A stretch of DNA of 36,888 nucleotides from assembly GCA_003218475.1 (NCBI GenBank), contig QHNR01000009.1:1-36888 (forward strand), read 5' to 3'. The first letter of the stretch is position 1, and each line of letters begins with the position of its first letter. The translations under genes and the position numbers were made by a program. Shown one piece after another: positions 8,209 to 32,301 of the stretch. The DNA is from Verrucomicrobiota bacterium (GTDB lineage Bacteria; Verrucomicrobiota; Verrucomicrobiia; Chthoniobacterales; UBA10450). The notes under the pieces are model-generated. The model saw nothing but the letters and a program-made list of their open reading frames with translations. It was not told the DNA's origin and did not search any database.

Positions 8209-8946
8209 TTAAACGATTGGCTGCGTAAGACCCCATCGCGCCAGCCGGAAACGCAGAGCGGTTGCCACGCAGCCCAAGCCGTAGCGCACGCTTCTGCGAA
8301 AATTGATTGATGACGCCTCGGGCATGTATCTGGCTGGGCACGTCACTTCGCCGATCGCGCAGCCGAGGGCAACGACTTGCGCGAGGGTTTGGTTGTCGAA
8401 CACAAAGTCGTTGGAATTTGCCTCCAACGGCAACCGCTCCAGCAATTGGCGCGAAAATGCGCGATAGCCTGTGTGATATTCTGAAAGTTTCGCACCGATA
8501 AGGAGATTTTCCACGAGCGTCAGGACGCGGTTTGAGATGTATTTCCACCACGGCATGCCACCGCGAAGTGCGCCTCCCCCAAGAATGCGTGACGCAAGCA
8601 CACAGGGGTAAAGTCCGCTTGCTACAAGAGCCGCCATCGCAGGAATCAACTGCGGCGTGTACTGATAATCAGGATGAATCATGATAATGATATCTGCGCC
8701 CGCAGCTAGCGCGAGCCGGTAACAAGTCTTTTGGTTCGCGCCGTAACCACGATTCTCCGGATGCATCTCCACTTGCACGTGTTGCAGGGTGCGCGCGATT
8801 GCTACGGTCTCATCGTGACTGGCATCGTCTACGACGATTACAAGATCCACTATGCCGTGCGCCATGACTTCATCGTAAGTCTGACGCAACGTGCGCGCGG
8901 CGTTATACGCGGGCATTACTACCACAATTTTCTGGCCGTTGAGCAT
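8209..8946 (-). CDS. Glycosyltransferase family 2
   Basis: VVVMPAYNAARTLRQTYDEV, VDLVIVVDDASHDETVAIA, GYGANQKTCYRLALAAGADIIIMIHPDYQY. Confidence 0.94.
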   Translation of the reverse strand: MLNGQKIVVVMPAYNAARTLRQTYDEVMAHGIVDLVIVVDDASHDETVAIARTLQHVQVEMHPENRGYGANQKTCYRLALAAGADIIIMIHPDYQYTPQLIPAMAALVASGLYPCVLASRILGGGALRGGMPWWKYISNRVLTLVENLLIGAKLSEYHTGYRAFSRQLLERLPLEANSNDFVFDNQTLAQVVALGCAIGEVTCPARYMPEASSINFRRSVRYGLGCVATALRFRLARWGLTQPIV

Positions 8947-12380: not shown

Positions 12381-12439
12381 GGTAGGGCGCGTTCGCCGAG
12401 CGCGCCGGCCGACCTCCCGCCAAGTGGGTGTTCCCTACC
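12381..12439. repeat. GGTAGGG...CCCTACC intergenic inverted-repeat element
   Basis: TIR GGTAGGG/CCCTACC and internal GGCGCG/CGCGCC stem; fills the gap between two convergent genes. Confidence 0.7.
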
Positions 12440-13136
12440 CTTCGTACAAAATTCGCCCACAATTTTCGCAGCTCACGATTTCTTTTCCCGCTTTGACCTG
12501 CGCCGCGGTGGCAGTCGTCACTTTCATGTGACAGCCGGTACAAACGCCATGTTCGATGGCAACGACAGCCGCATCCCCCTTGCTTTTGAAGAGACGTTCG
12601 AAGCGACCGAGCGAATCCTCATCAATTTTTCCCGCCAACTCCGAGCGCTCCTTGCTTAATCCTTGTAGCTGCGACTCCAAAGCTTTCGATTTTTCCTCCA
12701 AGTCGGCTGTCTGCCGTGCGATCGAGTTTTGAGCTGCGGTTGCTTTCTTTTCTTCTTCAGCCAAGTCTGCCTTGACCTTGTCGGCGAGCACCATCAGTTC
12801 CAACTCGTCGTCTTCTATTTTCCGAATTTCATTTTCGTAACGCTCGATCTCGTGCCCGATTGCCCGAAATTCCTCATTCTTGCGTGTCTGGTATTGCTGG
12901 GTCTTGAGACGTGAGATCGTCTCGGTGCGAGTCCCAACATCCAGCTCAAGTCTCTTGCGATCGATTTCCACCTGTCGCGCTCTCTGCTTAAGGCCTTCTA
13001 CGCTCGCCCTGCTTGCTGCCAATTGCGCTTCTAGGCTGCTGCGCCGGAGCGGCACAGTCTCAATTTCGGTCCGAATCTGTCTGATCTTTTGGTCTCGATC
13101 TTGGAGAATCAGTAGTTGTTCCAATTCGGAATGCAC
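12435..13136 (-). CDS. Coiled-coil protein with C4-type zinc ribbon
   Basis: 233 aa, long heptad-like coiled coil then CTGCHMKVTTATAAQVKAGKEIVSCENCGRILYEG. Confidence 0.9.
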   Translation of the reverse strand: MHSELEQLLILQDRDQKIRQIRTEIETVPLRRSSLEAQLAASRASVEGLKQRARQVEIDRKRLELDVGTRTETISRLKTQQYQTRKNEEFRAIGHEIERYENEIRKIEDDELELMVLADKVKADLAEEEKKATAAQNSIARQTADLEEKSKALESQLQGLSKERSELAGKIDEDSLGRFERLFKSKGDAAVVAIEHGVCTGCHMKVTTATAAQVKAGKEIVSCENCGRILYEG

Positions 13137-13173: not shown

Positions 13174-13960
13174 TTACCGCCCTGCCGGCTCAATTTGATT
13201 CAAGGCAGTGAGAACTTGCTCCGGCCGCGCACGAACCGCGATGTTTTCGGTGAGCTTGACCCAACGAACGATTCTGCTGGAATCGATCAGAAACTCAGCG
13301 GGTCTTGCGATATCCGCGCCTTTTGGCCCCGCCCCCGCGATGCAGCACATCGTAACGGCGAATCACTTCGGCTTTAGCATCGGAAAGTAACGGGAACGTA
13401 TAGCCGCTTTTTTGCGATCGGCGCCGGTTAATGTCGGGTGGATCGACGCTAATACCAACGACGCGGATGCCACGCGCATCGAACTCCGAAAGCTTTTGCT
13501 GGAAACTCCGTAACCCGGAGTTGCATAGTGGTCACCAAAAACCGCGATAGAAAATCATTACAACAGCCCGCGACCCGGAAAGCAAATCACCCAAGCCGAC
13601 CGGCTGTTCGTTTTGATCCAACAACATGAAGTCCGGCGCCTTTTCGCCGAGGCGCGGCGCATGAGCCGAGAGCGGCACCTGGCGCAGGACATAGAAAATT
13701 TCGTAACTAAAAAGACCAAAAAGAAACAGCGCGATCGCTGTTAGGATCGAGCCGAAGATCTTACCACAATAAAGTTGTGACCGGCCAAACGCGCGAAATA
13801 GCCCAACAATCAACAAGGCACCGCCAATTCCAAAGAGCAAGAGATTTGCCCATGGAAAATCGCGCGTAATTGGAAACCGGACGAAAAATCCGTAGGAGAA
13901 CAATCCGGCGACGGCGACAACAAAGCCAACCCAGAGCAGCGAGTTCCATTGTCGTTTCAT
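13174..13960 (-). CDS. Membrane-anchored peroxiredoxin-like protein, candidate Sec-containing (UGA at catalytic Cys) with one apparent 1-nt frameshift; otherwise a pseudogene
   Basis: ORF 13532-13960 ends ...VVMIFYRGFW then TGA; reading through gives PLCNSGLRSFQQKLSEFDARGIRVVGISVDPPDINRRRSQKSGYTFPLLSDAKAEVIRRYDVLH; a frame change near 13326-13349 gives AGAGPKGADIARPAEFLIDSSRIVRWVKLTENIAVRARPEQVLTALNQIEPAGR*; starts in ATGA overlap with the OPT gene. Confidence 0.75.
13504..13522 (-). promoter_or_regulatory. Candidate bacterial SECIS hairpin
   Basis: mRNA sense: UGA-CCACUAUGC-AACUCCG-GGUUA-CGGAGUU; perfect 7-bp stem, loop begins GG, 16 nt between UGA and loop. Confidence 0.55.
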
Positions 13961-15990
13961 GCCGATCTTGCAGTGGCCATTCGCAAGATCCACCGGTAGA
14001 GCAGGAATGCGATAACGGCGAACGCGAGGCCGCCGATAAAAACGCCGGCTATCTCAAATCCAGGACCCACCACGCCGAGCGGCGCAGCCTTGCCGGAAAA
14101 CACGACGATTGCGGAAAGGATGACTCCTATGATGCTTTCCCCGACGATCAAGCCGGACGCGAGCAGCACGCCGAGCTGTTTCGTCGCTTCGGGCTTTGGC
14201 GTGCGATTAGCGCGTTGGTCGAAGAACCAGCCGACTATCGCGCCGACGACAATCATCAACGTGCTTTGCGTTGGCAGATAGATTCCCAGACCAACAGCCA
14301 ACGGTGGAACGCGCATGTGTTTCGTAGTGCGGGCAAGAATTTCGTCCAACAAGATGATACCAATCCCGATGAATCCGCCGATCCGGATCAAGCTCCAGTC
14401 AATGTCTGCGGCTATAACGCCTTGAGCCAAAGAGGAAATCAGGCCAGCCTGAGGCGCCGGCAGCGGATGGGGACGCAACTCTGCTCCCGGTGCGCCGACA
14501 AAACCATAAGCATGATTCACCAGATCGAGCACCGGCGGAATCACAAACGCGCCGGCAATGACACCGATGACCAGCGCCATCTGCTGTTTCCAAGGTGTCG
14601 CATCAACTAATTGACCGGTCTTGAGATCCTGAAGGTTGTTATTCGCGATCGCAGCAACATTGAAGATGACTGCTGTCGTGAATAGAGCGAAGGCCATCAG
14701 TGATTTGGCTGCATCTGGCGGCACGTACGGTTTCAGGCCAATCACAAGTAGCAAGGCAGCGCCGATCACCACCAGAATGCCAATTCCCGACAATGGGCTA
14801 TTAGACGAACCGATTAAGCCTGCCATGTAACCGCAGACTGCTGAGACGAAGAAGCTCATCAACACGACGTACGCGACGCCGCCAATGATGAGCGTTGGGA
14901 GATGCGTACCGAGGCCGCTTGTGTTGCCGAAATAACCCAGCAGCCATCCAATCGGCAGCATGCAAGCCAACGTCACAAGACCGACAAGGCCGATTGGAAT
15001 GTCGCGCTCAGTGATCGGCAGCGTGTCGGCTTTACCGGCTTTGCGCGCGCGTGAGGCAGCCATCGCACTTGCCAGACCGCTCGCAACCGGCTTCACTAAC
15101 TTCAGCAGCGTCCAGATCGCCGAAACCCCGATCGCGCCGGCGCCGACGAAACGCACTTTCGTGCTCCAGGTTTTCTGCGCGAGCGTGGCCGCAGCGGTTG
15201 TGAGATCGCCCGCGATGGCTGAAAAATGCGGAACCCCCCAACCCCAACCAATCAGCGCGCCAATCAACATCGCGATTCCAACTGAAAGACCGACCAGGTG
15301 CCCGATCGCAAGAAGCGCGAACGACAGCGCGAAATCATAGCCGCTGACTGCGCCGCGTCTGCCGATTCGAAAAGTCTGCGCGACGTCTGCCGCGAAAATT
15401 TGAGTACCAACGATCACCGCGAAGGCGGCGGAAACGATCGATCCCCACAAGACCGCGAGCAGGCCGGCGCGGCCGTGTTCGACATCGGACGCGTGGGCAG
15501 AGTCGCCGCTGCTGCCAACCTTGAGCACTTCAGCGCAAGCGACGCCTTCCGGATACGGTAAGTCGGAAGTCGTCACCAGGGCGCGACGCAACGGGATTGA
15601 ATACATGACCCCCAGAATTCCGCCGAGCGCGCAGATCCAAAACGAGGTCCAGAACGGAAATTCCGTCCAATAACCGATCATGATCAAACCCGGCAACACA
15701 AAGATGATGGACGACAGTGTCCCCGCCGCGGACGCGACGGTTTGCACAATGTTATTTTCTTGAATCGTCGCATCGCGGAAACCGCGCAGGATTGCCATCG
15801 AAATCACTGCCGCCGGAATCGACGTCGAAAAAGTAAGACCAGCCTTAAGGCCGAAGTACACATTGGCCGCGGTGAACACTAGTGTGATCAGGACACCAAT
15901 AATCAGGCCGCGGACGGTAAGCTCTTTGCGTGTTTGTTCGCGGCCGTTCACGAGGTGCGCAGGATATGTTGAATTCGCGAAAGCGGTCAA
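13957..15990 (-). CDS. OPT family oligopeptide transporter
   Basis: 677 aa, many TM segments, ELTVRGLIIGVLITLVFTAANVYFGLKAGLTFSTSIPAAVISMAIL typical OPT N-terminus. Confidence 0.93.
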   Translation of the reverse strand: MTAFANSTYPAHLVNGREQTRKELTVRGLIIGVLITLVFTAANVYFGLKAGLTFSTSIPAAVISMAILRGFRDATIQENNIVQTVASAAGTLSSIIFVLPGLIMIGYWTEFPFWTSFWICALGGILGVMYSIPLRRALVTTSDLPYPEGVACAEVLKVGSSGDSAHASDVEHGRAGLLAVLWGSIVSAAFAVIVGTQIFAADVAQTFRIGRRGAVSGYDFALSFALLAIGHLVGLSVGIAMLIGALIGWGWGVPHFSAIAGDLTTAAATLAQKTWSTKVRFVGAGAIGVSAIWTLLKLVKPVASGLASAMAASRARKAGKADTLPITERDIPIGLVGLVTLACMLPIGWLLGYFGNTSGLGTHLPTLIIGGVAYVVLMSFFVSAVCGYMAGLIGSSNSPLSGIGILVVIGAALLLVIGLKPYVPPDAAKSLMAFALFTTAVIFNVAAIANNNLQDLKTGQLVDATPWKQQMALVIGVIAGAFVIPPVLDLVNHAYGFVGAPGAELRPHPLPAPQAGLISSLAQGVIAADIDWSLIRIGGFIGIGIILLDEILARTTKHMRVPPLAVGLGIYLPTQSTLMIVVGAIVGWFFDQRANRTPKPEATKQLGVLLASGLIVGESIIGVILSAIVVFSGKAAPLGVVGPGFEIAGVFIGGLAFAVIAFLLYRWILRMATARSA

Positions 15991-25380: not shown

Positions 25381-25504
25381 CTGGGGAGCACAAGGCTGCC
25401 AGCCAGTTCAGCTCGGCAGCTTGCTGAGATGCAGAGCTCATTCGCGCGGAGGGACGTTTTCGAATGTTGCCGGCAACTACAGGCCAGCGGCCTGAGCTCC
25501 CTAG
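25381..25504. repeat. CTGGGGAGC-family multi-hairpin element (degenerate copy)
   Basis: CTGGGGAGCACAAGGCTGCCAGCC...CTCGGCAGCTTGCTGAG...GTTGCCGGCAACTACAGGCCAGCGGCCTGAGCTCCCTAG; homologue of 33668-33805. Confidence 0.85.
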
Positions 25505-26739
25505 CGATGGACACGCTCTCCCTTGACGTAGACGGAATGCGTCTGCGGAATTCCAAACCAGTACGCCAACTCGCGGTAATCTTCGCAATCGAAGATCGAG
25601 AAGTTAGCAAGCTTGCCTCGTTCGAGCGACCCGATCTTGCCGCCGCGATTGAGACTGTAAGCCGCATTAATTGTGGATGCCGTGATTGCCTCCGCGGGCG
25701 ACATTTTCATCCGCGTACACGCAATCGACAAAATCATCGGCATGCTCGGAGTCGGCGACGAACCGGGATTGAAATCTGTCGCGAGCACAACGGCAAGGCC
25801 TGCGTCGAGCATTTCGCGTGCGTGAGGGTATGCTGTCGATCCGAGCGCGTAAACAGAACCCGGCAGTAGCACTGGTTGCACGCCGGCGGATTTCATTGCC
25901 GCAATTCCCCGCTCGTCTGTTTTCTCCAAATGATCCGCCGTAGTCGCTTTCAATTCAGCGGCAAGTTGCGCCGCGCCGGAATTGCTGAGTTGATCCGCAT
26001 GAATTCGCAGCCCTAGTCCGAGCTGCCTTGCCGCCGTCAAAATTCCTCTCGATTGCTCAATGGTGAAATAACCATGCTCGCAAAACACGTCGCAAAATTC
26101 GGCCAGCTTTTCCTTTGACATCCGCGGCAACATCTCATCAATCAGAAGATCGATGTATTCATTGACGTCCAGTTCGCGCGGCACCGCGTGCGCACCAAGA
26201 AACGTCGGGACAATTTCCAGCGGCTTTTCTTCATTGAGTCGCTGCATCACCCGCAAGATTTTCAATTCATCTTCGACCGTCAATCCGTACCCAGATTTTG
26301 CTTCGATGGTTGTCGTTCCACAGCGCAGAAACCATTCCGCGTGTGTCTGTGCTTGATTGAAAAGTTCTTCGCTACTAGCGGCGCGCGTTTTTTCCACAGT
26401 TGACCAAATTCCGCCGCCCGCCTTGGCGATTTGTTCGTAAGTCTCGCCGCGGGCGCGGCGCTCAAAATCATCGAGACGATTTCCGGCAAAAATCAAGTGT
26501 GTATGCGCATCGACAAATCCTGGCAGGACAACACGACCGTCGGCATCGATGATCTCCACATCGCGTGCGTTCTTCGCGACCTCCTCGCTTGAACCAAGGA
26601 TTTCGATCTTCCCTTCACGAATTAGCATTCCGCCATCGCGGATAATCGCCAACTCAGACATCTCAGCACCGACGCGCGGCCGCTTCGGTCCCGCCAGCGT
26701 GATCAATTGCGAAGCGTGAAGAACAACGAGTGACTTCAC
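25501..26739 (-). CDS. hutI: Imidazolonepropionase
   Basis: [64 protein letters not shown]. Confidence 0.97.
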
Positions 26740-28430
26740 GATTTGCTTAGCTTGCCTTCGACTACCCCAATGATGGTCTTCAACTGCGCCTCCGAATCGG
26801 CACCGGTTTTTCGCACCTTTTCAAGGAGCGCCGATTTGAATTTTTCGTCTTTCAACTGCCCGATATTGATTCGCACGTTCAACGCGGCTCCTTCAATGCA
26901 GGCCCGCGTAGCCAGCGCGCCGACGCCTACATCTGAAATAGAAGCCGGATTTCCTTTGTCCGCCATCTCGGAGAGTAGTTCGTAGGACTTGGATGCCGTC
27001 TCCATTACCTTTAACGGAACCTCCGCGGCATATTTCGTCGCCTCTTCAATCGCTCTCGAACGTACTGCCTTTTCTTCTGCCGATTCTTTTGGCAGCGCGA
27101 ACGCATCCATTACTTTGTTGAATGCGGCCGTATCTTCATCCACAAGCGACAGCAATTCGTCCTTGAGTTGCTGGGCCTTGACCGCCCAATCGCTGAAATA
27201 CTCCAGCTTGTCGTCCCAGCCACGTTTCCCGGCGGAAAGATTCGCCACCATCCCACCCAGCGACGCACCTAACGCGCCCATCAACGCTGCTACGGAACCA
27301 CCACCCGGCGCAGGCGAATCGCTCAATGTTTCATTACAAAACTCTCGCAGATTCATTTTGACCAGGGACGGCTTTTGCTCAGTAGATTCGATCTTCAATT
27401 CAATCACCTTTTCTTTTGGGTCGAAAGGTTTCAGTTCGCTCAGGCCCATTGAGCGAATCGCGATGTCGATCAATTCTTCCTCTGAAGCGCCCTCAGACCA
27501 TCGCTGTTTGCGAAGAAAATGACGACCGGCATCGACGAGACATTTTTTTGGAACCATGCCCACAATCTCCGAGCCGGTTACACGCAACCCGCGATTGGAC
27601 GCCGCTTCTACACAAGCATCGAACGCAACGTGCAACGGCGTCTCCTCGATGTTGGTCAGATTCATCGAGACTTGCGCGATCCCGTATTCTTTCACGAACC
27701 AGCCGATAGCCTTCACGTGTTTCAACGTTCCGGGAATCCGAACCGGTTCGCCGTTTGAATCCAGAACCGGTTTGCCAGAAGGCGTGCCGTCTTCGGTCTT
27801 TACTCTCCCCTGCTCTCGGACATCAAACGCAACCGAGGTCGCGCGCCGCACCGATTTCGTGTTCAGGTTCACATTGTAAGCCACCAAAAAGTCGCGGACG
27901 CCAATCACCGTCGCGCCAGCTTTCTCGTTGAAAACGGCTGGCCCGAAATCTGGTTTCCATTCAGGCTGTTTAATTTTCTGAAAAAAACCTTCGTATTCCC
28001 CAGAGCGAATAACCGAAAGGTTCGAACGTGATTTATGTTTCGCTGCTTTTTCGTAGAGATAGACCGGAATCTTCAATTCCTCGCCAACACGTTTTCCAAG
28101 GTGATTTGCGCAATCGATTGCTTCTTCCCAGCTGACGTTGCTCACTGGAATGAACGGGCAAACATCGGTCGCGCCCATGCGGGGATGCGCGCCTTTTTGT
28201 TTGCGCATGTCGATCAACTCCGCGGCTTTTTTGATCGCGCGAAACGCCGCTTCCACCGCGGCGTCAGGAGGGCCGACAAAAGTCACCACCGTCCGATTCG
28301 TGCTTGCCCCAGGATCGACATCGAGCAACGACACGCTGTCAATCGTTTTAATCGCATCGGTGATCTGATGAATAACGCTTTCATCTCGCCCTTCAGAGAA
28401 ATTCGGGACGCACTCGATCAGTTTTTGCAT
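26736..28430 (-). CDS. ftcD: Fused glutamate formimidoyltransferase / formimidotetrahydrofolate cyclodeaminase
   Basis: [22 protein letters not shown] start; C-terminal [36 protein letters not shown] cyclodeaminase domain. Confidence 0.95.
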
Positions 28431-28535
28431 AGGTCCGACAGGATTCACGCGATTAGCAGGACTGCAAGAGCAGAGCCATCTCAGTTGGCTCATAATCAGT
28501 CTTGAAACAGTCTAATTTTTGTCCATAGTTGGATT

Positions 28536-28775
28536 ATGCCTACGGTATCAATCAGCGAAGCAAAGCAACGCTTGGGCGAGATTGCCGACCGCGCTATTGA
28601 AGGCGAGCACGTCGTGATTATCAGAAAATCGAAGCTGCTCGTGCTGAAACCGCTCGAGTTACCTGAGCCCGTGCCAATGCGGCCGCCTGGATATTTCCAC
28701 GACTGTTACGACGAGGAGGCAACTCAAGAATCCAATAAGCTCGCTGCCCGATCAGTCCGCAAAATTGTGAAGTGA
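28536..28775 (+). CDS. Phd/YefM-type antitoxin
   Basis: MPTVSISEAKQRLGEIADRAIEGEHVVIIRKSKLLVLKPLE. Confidence 0.85.
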   Translation: MPTVSISEAKQRLGEIADRAIEGEHVVIIRKSKLLVLKPLELPEPVPMRPPGYFHDCYDEEATQESNKLAARSVRKIVK

Positions 28776-29104
28776 GGCAGTGGGAAATATATCTTTTTCC
28801 TTTTCGGGAAGAGCGGCCGCATCCGGCAGTCATCATTTCCAATGAAGAACGTTGCGTAAACCACGACCTCGAATACGTAAATGCACTCATCTGCACCTCG
28901 GCCAGGCTCAATCGCGAGGCGAAAAAGCACGAAGTGGTTCTGAATGCCGCCGATGGCTTGGACTGGAAAACCGCTGTTCGCTGCGACGTGGTCTATCTCC
29001 TGCCGAAAGGTGAGTTTCGAGAGCTCCGCGGAAAAGTGAGCCCGCAACGTCGGGTCGCCATCGCGCGAAAAATTGCCGAAACTCTTCGACTGCCGATGGG
29101 GTAG
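28772..29104 (+). CDS. PemK/MazF-like toxin
   Basis: GTG start overlapping antitoxin stop (GTGA); WEIYLFPFREERPHPAVIISNEERC...VRCDVVYLLPKGEFRELRGKVSPQRRVAIARKI. Confidence 0.75.
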   Translation: MRQWEIYLFPFREERPHPAVIISNEERCVNHDLEYVNALICTSARLNREAKKHEVVLNAADGLDWKTAVRCDVVYLLPKGEFRELRGKVSPQRRVAIARKIAETLRLPMG

Positions 29105-29125
29105 CAACGAGCTTTACTTTAGTGC

Positions 29126-30793
29126 TTAATCCCGGACTTGCGGCTGCATCGGGATTTCGATCTTATGCGTTGCCGCGAATTCGATCGTGCGAGAGTAGCC
29201 GGCGTCGGCATGACGTAAGATGCCAGTGCCAGGATCGCTGGTGAGGACGCGCTCCAATCGACGCTTGGAATTTTCCGTGCCATCGGCGACCACGACCATA
29301 CCGGCGTGTTGTGAGAAACCGATCCCCACGCCGCCACCGTTATGAACAGACACCCAGGATGCGCCAGCTGCGGTGTTCACCAGTGCATTGAGCAGCGGCC
29401 AGTCAGCGATTGCGTCGCTGCCGTCGAGCATGCCTTCGGTTTCGCGATTGGGCGATGCAACAGAGCCGGAATCGAGATGATCGCGGCCAATCACGATGGG
29501 CGCTTTGAGCGCGCCGCGTTTCACTAATTCGTTCATCGCCAAGCCAAACTCGGCACGTTCGCCATAGCCCAGCCAGCAAATTCGCGCAGGCAATCCTTGA
29601 AATTGAATTTGCTCCTTCGCGAGTTTCATCCACCGCGCCAGCGTTTGGTTTTCGGGAAACAATTCGAGCGCGAGTTTGTCAGTGCGTGCGATGTCTTCAG
29701 GATCGCCACTTAAAGCGACCCACCGAAACGGACCGCGTCCTTCGCAAAACAGGGGACGGATGTATTCGGGAACAAACCCGGGAATATCAAACGCATTTTT
29801 AACACCGGCCTTTTTTGCCTGCGCGCGAATGTTGTTTCCATAATCGAACGTGACTGCGCCTTTTTTCTGCAATGCGAGCATGGCTTCAATGTGCACCGCC
29901 ATCGACCTCATTGCGCGTTCGATGTACTCGTCCGGATTTGTCCGGCGCAAAGCGAGCGCATCTTCGAGTGACATTCCATGCGGCACATAGCCATTCAACG
30001 CATCATGCGCGCTGGTTTGATCGGTGAGAACGTCGGGAACGACACCGCGCTTCACAATTTCAGGCAGAACATCTGCGCAATTGCCAACCAAACCCACGGA
30101 AAGCGACTTTCGATCTTTACGCGCCTGATCGATTAGCTTCAATGCTTCATCGAGCGACCATGCAATCTTGTCGCAGTAACCGCTCTTCAATCTTTTCTCA
30201 ATTCGCGCCGGATCGACTTCAACACCGAGAAAGAGTGCGCCGTTCATGGTCGCTGCAAGTGGCTGCGCGCCGCCCATCCCGCCAAGCCCGCCGGTTAAGA
30301 CAAATTTTCCGTCGAGCGAACCATCGAAATTCTTTCGAGCTGCTGCGGCAAAAGTTTCGTACGTTCCCTGCACGATCCCCTGGCTACCGATGTAGATCCA
30401 TGAGCCGGCTGTCATTTGTCCATACATTGTCAGCCCCATTCGCTCGAGCCGATTGAACTCGGCATAGTTGTTCCATTGCCCGACCAGGTTGGAGTTCGCG
30501 ATGAGGACACGCGGTGCTTCATCGTGTGTGCGGAATTTGCCGACAGGTTTTCCTGATTGCACGAGAAGCGTCTCGTCATTTTCAAGCTCGCGCAGCGAAC
30601 GCACGATCGCATCGAACGCCTCCCAACTTCTGGCGGCGCGTCCGGTTCCGCCGTACACGACCAGCTGATCCGGATTCTCGGCGACATCAGGATCGAGATT
30701 GTTCATGAGCATTCGCATTGCAGCTTCCTGATGCCAGCTTTTGCAGGTCCGCTCGCTGCCGCGCGGGGCGTGGATGATTCGTTTTCCGCTCAC
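29126..30793 (-). CDS. hutU: Urocanate hydratase
   Basis: [69 protein letters not shown]. Confidence 0.98.
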
Positions 30794-32301
30794 AGCTTTT
30801 GGCCTTCGGTATCAAATTTGCCTTGGCGGATTGCTTCAGCAACACCCGCGATTTCAAATGAGAGCGGCCGATCCTGCATCAGCGGCGGCGCGATTTTCCG
30901 TAGCGCAGCGAATGCCCGCTCGACGCCAACTCCAGCTTTCAACGGGCGACGATGTTCCAAGCCTTCTGCAGCCGTGAGCAGCTCGATCGCCAGCAAATTT
31001 TCGGCAAGATCGACAATCGATCGCAGCTTCAGCGCGCTCGTCATTCCCATCGAAACGTGATCTTCCTTTCCACCGGAGGTGGTGATGTTGTCAGAGCTCG
31101 CCGGGTGTGCGAGCACGCGCGCTTCGCTGACCAACGAAGCAGCCGCGACCTGCGCAGTCATGAAGCCGGACTCCAAACCCGGCTGTCGCGCGAGAAATGC
31201 GGGCAGGCCTTCGTTCTTATCGGGATTAACGAGCCGATCGGTTCGCCGTTCGCTCATGCTCATTAGATCGGCAATCGCAATCGCGGAATAATCAAAGGCG
31301 AGCCCAAGCGGCGCGCCATGAAAATTGCCGCCGGAAATCACCTCGCCGCTTTCCGCAAATACAAGCGGATTATCGGTTGCTGACGCGGATTCGATCAGCA
31401 AAACGTCTTCGCAATGGGCCAGCGCGCCGCGCACTGCGCCGTGCACCTGCGGTATGCAACGCAGGCTGTATGCGTCCTGGACACGCGGATCGCCCGTGAG
31501 ATGCGACTGGCGAATTTTGCTGCCTTCCATCAGCGACAACAGATGTTCGGCAACAGCTCTCTGGCCTGGGTGTGGACGCGTATCCTGTAACCGCAAATCG
31601 AAAGCGGCAGGTGTACCTTTCAGCGCTTCGAGACTCATCGCGCCGGCGACATCAGCGACAAGCGCGACACGTAGCGCACGCAAAAGCGCAAGCCCACCGA
31701 CCGCGTGCATTGCCTGGGTGCCATTGAGAAGTGCCAGGCCTTCTTTTGCTTCGAGTTGCAGCGCCGTTAACCGAGCGCGTCTCAGCGCCTCGGCACTCGG
31801 CATCCGTTCCGTTTCAAAAAATGCCTCGCTTTCACCGATGAGACTCAATGCCAGATGCGCAAGCGGAGCTAGATCGCCGCTCGCACCGACAGAGCCCTTC
31901 TCCGGAACGACAGGATAAACGCGCCGATTGAGCATTTCACAAAGCAACTGAATAATTTCGAGCCGAACTCCGCTGAAACCGAGCGCAAGCACGTTTGCGC
32001 GCAACAGAATCATCGCCCGCACCTCGGCCTCGGACAGCGGATTTCCAATTCCGCAGGCGTGGCTGCGGACAAGGTTTAGCTGAAGCTGGCGCAAGTCGCT
32101 CCGTGGAATCCGAACATCGGACAACTTGCCGAATCCGGTGTTGACTCCGTAAACCACCACATCACGCGCCACGATCTGTTCGATTACTTTGCGCGACGCC
32201 AGAATACGCGGACGCGCGAGCGAAGAAATGTGAACGGGCTCGGCTCCGAGAGCGACCGCCGCGAGTTGAACAAGAGAAATCTGCCCGCCGTTCAGCTCCA
32301 T
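30790..32301 (-). CDS. hutH: Histidine ammonia-lyase
   Basis: [33 protein letters not shown] (MIO ASG), [30 protein letters not shown] overlap with hutU. Confidence 0.98.

Follow-up and report, generated by a model that had tools for sequence, protein, structure and literature searches.

An in-frame UGA codon that almost certainly encodes selenocysteine in a membrane-anchored peroxiredoxin-like gene family of Verrucomicrobiota and Acidobacteriota

The gene described here encodes a predicted membrane-anchored peroxiredoxin-like protein in a soil-dwelling Verrucomicrobiota bacterium that is related to Candidatus Udaeobacter, and the UGA codon that interrupts it almost certainly encodes selenocysteine (Sec) and is not a decayed TGC. 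It lies on contig QHNR01000009.1, within a 36,888-nucleotide stretch of DNA that was analysed as a whole and is referred to below as the window. The gene is very probably a member of a family of membrane-anchored peroxiredoxin-like selenoproteins that exists only in a Sec form, and its copy in the window is either a very recent loss or the product of an assembly error. A first-pass annotation, made from the sequence alone, had proposed a Sec UGA in a peroxiredoxin-like UxxC protein followed by a bSECIS hairpin. The sel genes of the assembly, the UGA codons of homologues and the published SECIS constraints support that proposal.

The minus-strand open reading frame runs from an ATG at position 13960 to a TGA at 13534-13532, which directly follows the motif FYRGFW, and beyond it the same frame continues (...AVVMIFYRGFW-U-PLCNSGLRSFQQKLSEFDARGIRVVGISVDP). 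This gapless readthrough had been described at the outset, and re-reading the sequence reproduced it exactly. When the UGA is translated as a residue, a match to PF00578 (AhpC/TSA) spans it with 89 bits against a cut-off of 26, and PF08534 is matched as well. A domain search with the portion before the UGA alone gave no match. Standard annotation would cut the gene at the UGA or split it. The features of the locus are collected in Table 1.

Table 1. Coordinates of the selenoprotein gene, its internal features and its neighbours in the window
Feature	Position	Strand	Basis or detail
OPT oligopeptide transporter gene, upstream	13957..15990	-	PF03169, E=3.7e-101
Membrane-anchored peroxiredoxin-like selenoprotein gene	13174..13960	-	PF00578, E=3e-25 across the UGA; readable orthologues in ~31 of 83 genomes of the bacterial family
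Three predicted transmembrane helices	13694..13942	-	Residues ~7-26, 37-59 and 67-89; L038 model and hydropathy of 40 homologues
In-frame UGA, selenocysteine codon (almost certain)	13532..13534	-	Residue 143 here; U147 in reference homologue L038
bSECIS hairpin	13504..13522	-	AACUCCG / loop GGUUA / CGGAGUU; loop 16 nt after UGA; MFE -11.8 kcal/mol
G-rich stretch with one extra nucleotide (frame break)	13327..13340	-	Alignment with six relatives
CT398-like coiled-coil / C4 zinc-ribbon gene, next downstream	12435..13136	-	PF02591, PF24481

Whether relatives carry Cys or UGA at this column had been suggested as a check, and all close homologues carry UGA. TGA stands at the Sec codon in all 30 loci fetched from the bacterial family and in all homologues from a second scan of one genome per species, which added Verrucomicrobiota from beyond the family together with about 20 homologues from Acidobacteriota at 50-58% identity. 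Two distant homologues, L135 and L137 (36-37% identity), likewise have TGA. Every readable homologue of the protein family shows UGA, over 55 distinct downstream sequences from Verrucomicrobiota and Acidobacteriota. No Cys version was found among close relatives with the N-terminal membrane part, and a phylum-level search of 390 genomes returned no closely related Cys version with the membrane domain. One candidate, L185, has hydrophobic N-terminal helices and CPLC but is distant and another kind of protein. The relatives that follow in similarity are for the most part soluble proteins with FYRGxWCPYC, which have Cys at the Sec column.

The pattern UGA-N6-UGY-hairpin matches 31 of the 83 family genomes, at the sites of the selenoprotein gene, and its reversal gives no match in the same genomes. 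In a tree built by a quick method, the main verrucomicrobial and acidobacterial groups stay separate, so no recent transfer between the phyla is shown; an older transfer may have taken place. Two genomes each hold two copies of the gene, all with UGA (G062, contigs C48 and C115; G073, contigs C29 and C60), which represent paralogues or bin mixing. A contig labelled Deltaproteobacteria (L083, VBKE01000432.1) falls inside the verrucomicrobial clade and has verrucomicrobial zinc-ribbon and ychF neighbours at 77-81%; it is probably mislabelled or misbinned.

Nine nucleotides after the UGA begins a perfect 7-bp stem (AACUCCG at 13522-13516, CGGAGUU at 13510-13504) that encloses the loop at 13515-13511. 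The first-pass annotation had pointed out this stem, its 5-nt loop opening with GG and its 16-nt distance from the UGA; all are present, and the hairpin is retained in all close relatives. The published bSECIS model specifies a loop of 3-9 nt, a stem of 4-16 bp, a G in the first two loop positions, a distance of 16-37 nt from the UGA and an MFE of at most -7.5 kcal/mol (PMC13188914). Checked against this model, as had been advised, the window hairpin agrees throughout, with a 5-nt loop, a 7-bp stem, GG, 16 nt and -11.8 kcal/mol over 42 nt. Among the 1101 TGA triplets that the window contains on its two strands, only 0.7% are followed by an equally good hairpin (perfect stem of at least 7 bp, same spacing and loop-G rules). 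Because of this rarity and its retention in all close relatives, the hairpin is more than a chance structure.

Synonymous variation across 46 coding sequences from both phyla is lowest at the hairpin among 251 six-codon windows, at 0.086 for CNSELR and 0.099 for NSELRS, compared with a gene median of 0.57 and a lowest value of 0.42 elsewhere. The core CUCCG-NGUUN-CGGAG keeps its 5 bp (C15-G29, U16-A/G28, C17-G27, C18-G26 and G19-C25) in 55/55 distinct downstream sequences of Verrucomicrobiota and Acidobacteriota, and the only parts of the hairpin that vary are the loop, one U-A/U-G pair and the A-U pairs at the outer end. Four of the seven pairs never vary, and no covariation proper was found among the 55 sequences; since the stem is nearly fixed, the SECIS claim rests on the synonymous constraint. 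The canonical sequence can also form an alternative hairpin, GCAACU-CCG-AGUUGC. By inspection, this pairing is weakened in the window, and TTA/TTT codons break it in some homologues, so the universally paired CUCCG/CGGAG is taken as the SECIS. The distant homologues L135 and L137 have another hairpin, CUGCAA-GGU-UUGCAG, slightly farther from the UGA.

The assembly that contains the window (3.16 Mb, 195 contigs, 83% complete) encodes all four of the genes selA, selB, selC and selD, which the first-pass annotation had named as a check. Its tRNA-Sec scores 69.8 bits and is called SeC with anticodon tca by ARAGORN; the scores of selA, selB and selD are 411, 336 and 362 bits, and all four genes exceed their curated cut-offs. 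Contig C7 holds selC, selD and selA together, and selB starts at the edge of contig C44; in several relatives, selB lies directly behind selA. A binning error is unlikely because contig C7 has a G+C content of 56%, close to the 55% of the window, and its selA and selD are ~70-88% identical to the copies of genus members. SelD itself (L009:1261-2346, on contig C7 of genome G000) has an in-frame UGA at LSSCAGUASK, as does SelD of most relatives, and UxxK is a known Sec site of SelD (PMC13188914). A further UGA upstream, near the chosen start of this selD, leaves its start unsure.

Across the bacterial family, selA is found in 29/31 genomes with the selenoprotein gene and in 27/52 without it (p=5e-5, for related genomes that are not independent). 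It is also matched in 23 of 24 more distant gene-bearing genomes. Searches for selA and tRNA-Sec found neither in two gene-bearing genomes, G003 and G005, each ~80% complete, and these are counted against the Sec reading. Many Sec-using relatives do not have the selenoprotein gene. Among other genomes, G075 carries two adjacent tRNA-Sec genes with equal scores (C160:8152-8241 and 8417-8506). A genome that is 96% complete has only a short C-terminal selA fragment (G017:C103:4191-4376), which may be what is left of a Sec trait since lost.

Together, the anatomy of the locus, its conservation and the machinery of the genome point to insertion through SelB: SelB carrying Sec-tRNA would bind the hairpin behind the UGA, and selenocysteine would be inserted at that codon. 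The first-pass annotation had offered an alternative, in which the UGA is a nonsense mutation (TGC to TGA) in a decaying Cys peroxiredoxin gene. A broken frame in the window copy and a higher frequency of broken copies in this gene than in its neighbours would fit such decay, but it does not explain why every homologue in the two phyla has UGA at this codon, why selection is purifying on both sides of it or why the hairpin codons are under extra constraint. Because the UGA is universal in the family, this explanation is rejected as very improbable. Selection on the readthrough frame would equally be expected if the organism read UGA as an ordinary sense codon, such as Trp or Gly. However, ordinary genes in the window, such as the OPT gene, end with UGA; the genome has tRNA-Sec, selA, selB and a Sec-containing SelD; and the UGA occurs only at a redox site of a known Sec type that is accompanied by a bSECIS. 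Reassignment of the codon is accordingly the least credible reading of all.

The Sec reading places the residue in a predicted membrane-tethered thioredoxin fold. A structural model of the intact homologue L038, built from a 40-row alignment with U147 modelled as Cys, has a mean pLDDT of 93.7 and a pTM of 0.88 and consists of three hydrophobic helices followed by the thioredoxin fold; the transmembrane-helix numbering is identical in L038 and the window protein for the N-terminal part. U147 is located at the N-terminus of helix 148-159, the first helix of the fold, and among solved structures the peroxiredoxins Bcp4 and AhpE come nearest, with a TM-score of 0.90 by target. The motif is FYRGxW-U-x-x-C, with U-P-L-C in the window; both the U and the C columns are invariant in 40 homologues, and U147 and C150 are the only Cys-type residues kept in all 40 rows. 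No Pfam family matches the N-terminal three-helix part above its cut-off, and the protein reaches the cut-off of no NCBIfam model.

In alignments with ResA-type and soluble FYRGxWCPYC proteins, U147 occupies the first Cys of CxxC, as the first-pass annotation had it. Its further claim that this Cys is the peroxidatic one does not hold, since profile alignment puts U147 in the Thr/Ser column of the T/SxxC motif of peroxiredoxins and C150 in that of the peroxidatic Cys. The charge of the N-terminus is +2.3, that of the first loop +0.3 and that of the second loop +3.9, so by the positive-inside rule the redoxin domain most likely lies on the outer, periplasmic side. The product would thus comprise three transmembrane helices and a periplasmic AhpC/TSA redoxin domain. 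Most likely, either Sec or the Cys three residues later would attack a peroxide or disulfide, a Se-S bond would then form between the two residues, and a thioredoxin- or DsbD-like partner would reset it. We lean to a Se-S redox pair that acts on periplasmic peroxides or disulfides. A more specific picture can be put forward only tentatively: a Sec-obligate, membrane-tethered redoxin with a periplasmic UxxC in Udaeobacter-type Verrucomicrobiota and Acidobacteriota. In this redoxin, Sec would take the place of the peroxiredoxin Thr and form a selenenylsulfide pair with the classical peroxidatic Cys, and the gene would be lost but never converted to Cys.

The window copy has one extra base within CATCGCGGGGGCGGGG, at ~13327-13340 in the alignment with six relatives, which bears out the 1-nt frame change that had been suspected near 13326-13349. 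With the UGA read through, its frame ends at a TGA at 13297-13295; the stop position of the relatives corresponds to a TAA at 13176-13174, which is reached only in another frame. In most relatives the frame is interrupted by nothing but the Sec codon (28 of 34 copies are intact), which is not so in the window copy. A programmed frameshift was ruled out, as the six compared relatives do not have the extra base. Because the break is real in the assembly, the window copy may not yield a working protein; the extra base lies after the active site and would give the product a wrong, shortened C-terminus. Before the break, the window copy gives pairwise dN/dS values of 0.11-0.16 (~0.14); after it, read in the frame of the relatives, the values are 0.04-0.26 (one pair saturated), and comparisons between other copies give 0.07-0.18. 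As dN/dS is low on both sides, the break is either very recent or an artefact.

If the family is real, as we hold, the window copy is probably a genuine pseudogene of recent origin, and the gene has then been lost repeatedly in this lineage. Within loci of the same synteny block and on the same contigs, 6/34 copies of the selenoprotein gene are frame-broken compared with 2/86 for four neighbouring genes (p=0.006), an excess that favours real, repeated loss. Consistent with this, the window copy alone among 30 family orthologues has changes in codons 6 and 7 after the UGA, affecting the loop and replacing Glu by Gly, and the gene is missing from many Sec-using relatives. Against a dead copy stand dN/dS values as low as those of intact copies, which would make the loss very recent, and the position of the break in a G-rich run. 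These same two features are what an intact gene with one base added by sequencing or assembly error would display. That reading is possible but less likely to be correct: the other window frames checked against Pfam are intact, and breaks cluster in the selenoprotein gene, not in its neighbours.

Prx-like UxxC selenoproteins have been known since 2005 (PMC1088965, PMC2398784, PMC13188914), in agreement with what the first-pass annotation had stated about bacteria. The Prx-like thiol:disulfide oxidoreductase selenoproteins with UxxC or UxxU (PMC13188914 Table 1, PMC9312934, PMC1088965) share PF00578, UxxC and an in-frame UGA with a bSECIS. In contrast to those members, which were compared by description only, the present proteins have a three-helix membrane domain in front, no Cys orthologue with that domain was found, and the hairpin sequence is almost fixed across two phyla. 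The Redoxin family UxxC selenoprotein (PF08534; PMC13188914 Table 1, e.g. HEU0032618.1) shares the PF08534 match and UxxC, and this entry, also compared by description only, possibly covers relatives of the present gene already. What is new is apparently a membrane-anchored, Sec-only subgroup of the known Prx-like UxxC selenoproteins.

Other redoxins are more distant. ResA/TlpA-type oxidoreductases share a membrane tether, a thioredoxin fold and a CxxC aligned to UxxC, and ResA structures were matched; however, they have one anchor instead of three helices and Cys instead of Sec, the present fold is closest to peroxiredoxins, and the ResA model (NF002854) gives 48.6-60 bits against a cut-off of 170. 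The 1-Cys and PrxQ/Bcp-type peroxiredoxins (AhpE, Bcp4) are the best fold matches, with Cys150 in the peroxidatic column. The proteins described here differ in having Sec for the Thr/Ser of T/SxxC, Arg (FYRG) for the Pro of PxxxT and a membrane domain, so that R-G-x-W-U-x-x-C replaces the classical PxxxT/SxxC. PrxU also combines a peroxiredoxin fold with Sec, but its Sec is peroxidatic (TxxU) whereas here Sec is in the Thr place (UxxC), and the PrxU model (NF040737) gives 23-36 bits against a cut-off of 270.

The openly accessible literature contains the known UxxC family, and a search of it found no report on this gene or on Sec use in Udaeobacter-related bacteria. These are among the most abundant soil bacteria, and the present results place Sec use in them. 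So far only Sec versions of the gene have been seen, and its hairpin is nearly fixed across two phyla, which makes the family a clean natural data set for what SelB must recognise. The repeated breakage of the gene and its absence from Sec-using relatives make it possible to test whether selenoproteins disappear directly or only after conversion to Cys.

Most verrucomicrobial loci have the order OPT gene, selenoprotein gene, CT398-like zinc-ribbon gene and ychF. In the window, the OPT stop TGA overlaps the selenoprotein ATG by 4 nt (ATGA, 13960-13957). In Acidobacteriota and some other Verrucomicrobiota, none of the genes that flank it in the window was found near the selenoprotein gene, so this gene is regarded as an independent unit, and its link with OPT may be one of translational coupling only. 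Elsewhere in the window, positions 25501-32301 of the minus strand look like a histidine-utilisation cluster, with hutI-, ftcD/fchA-, hutU- and hutH-like open reading frames recognised by eye from their translations.
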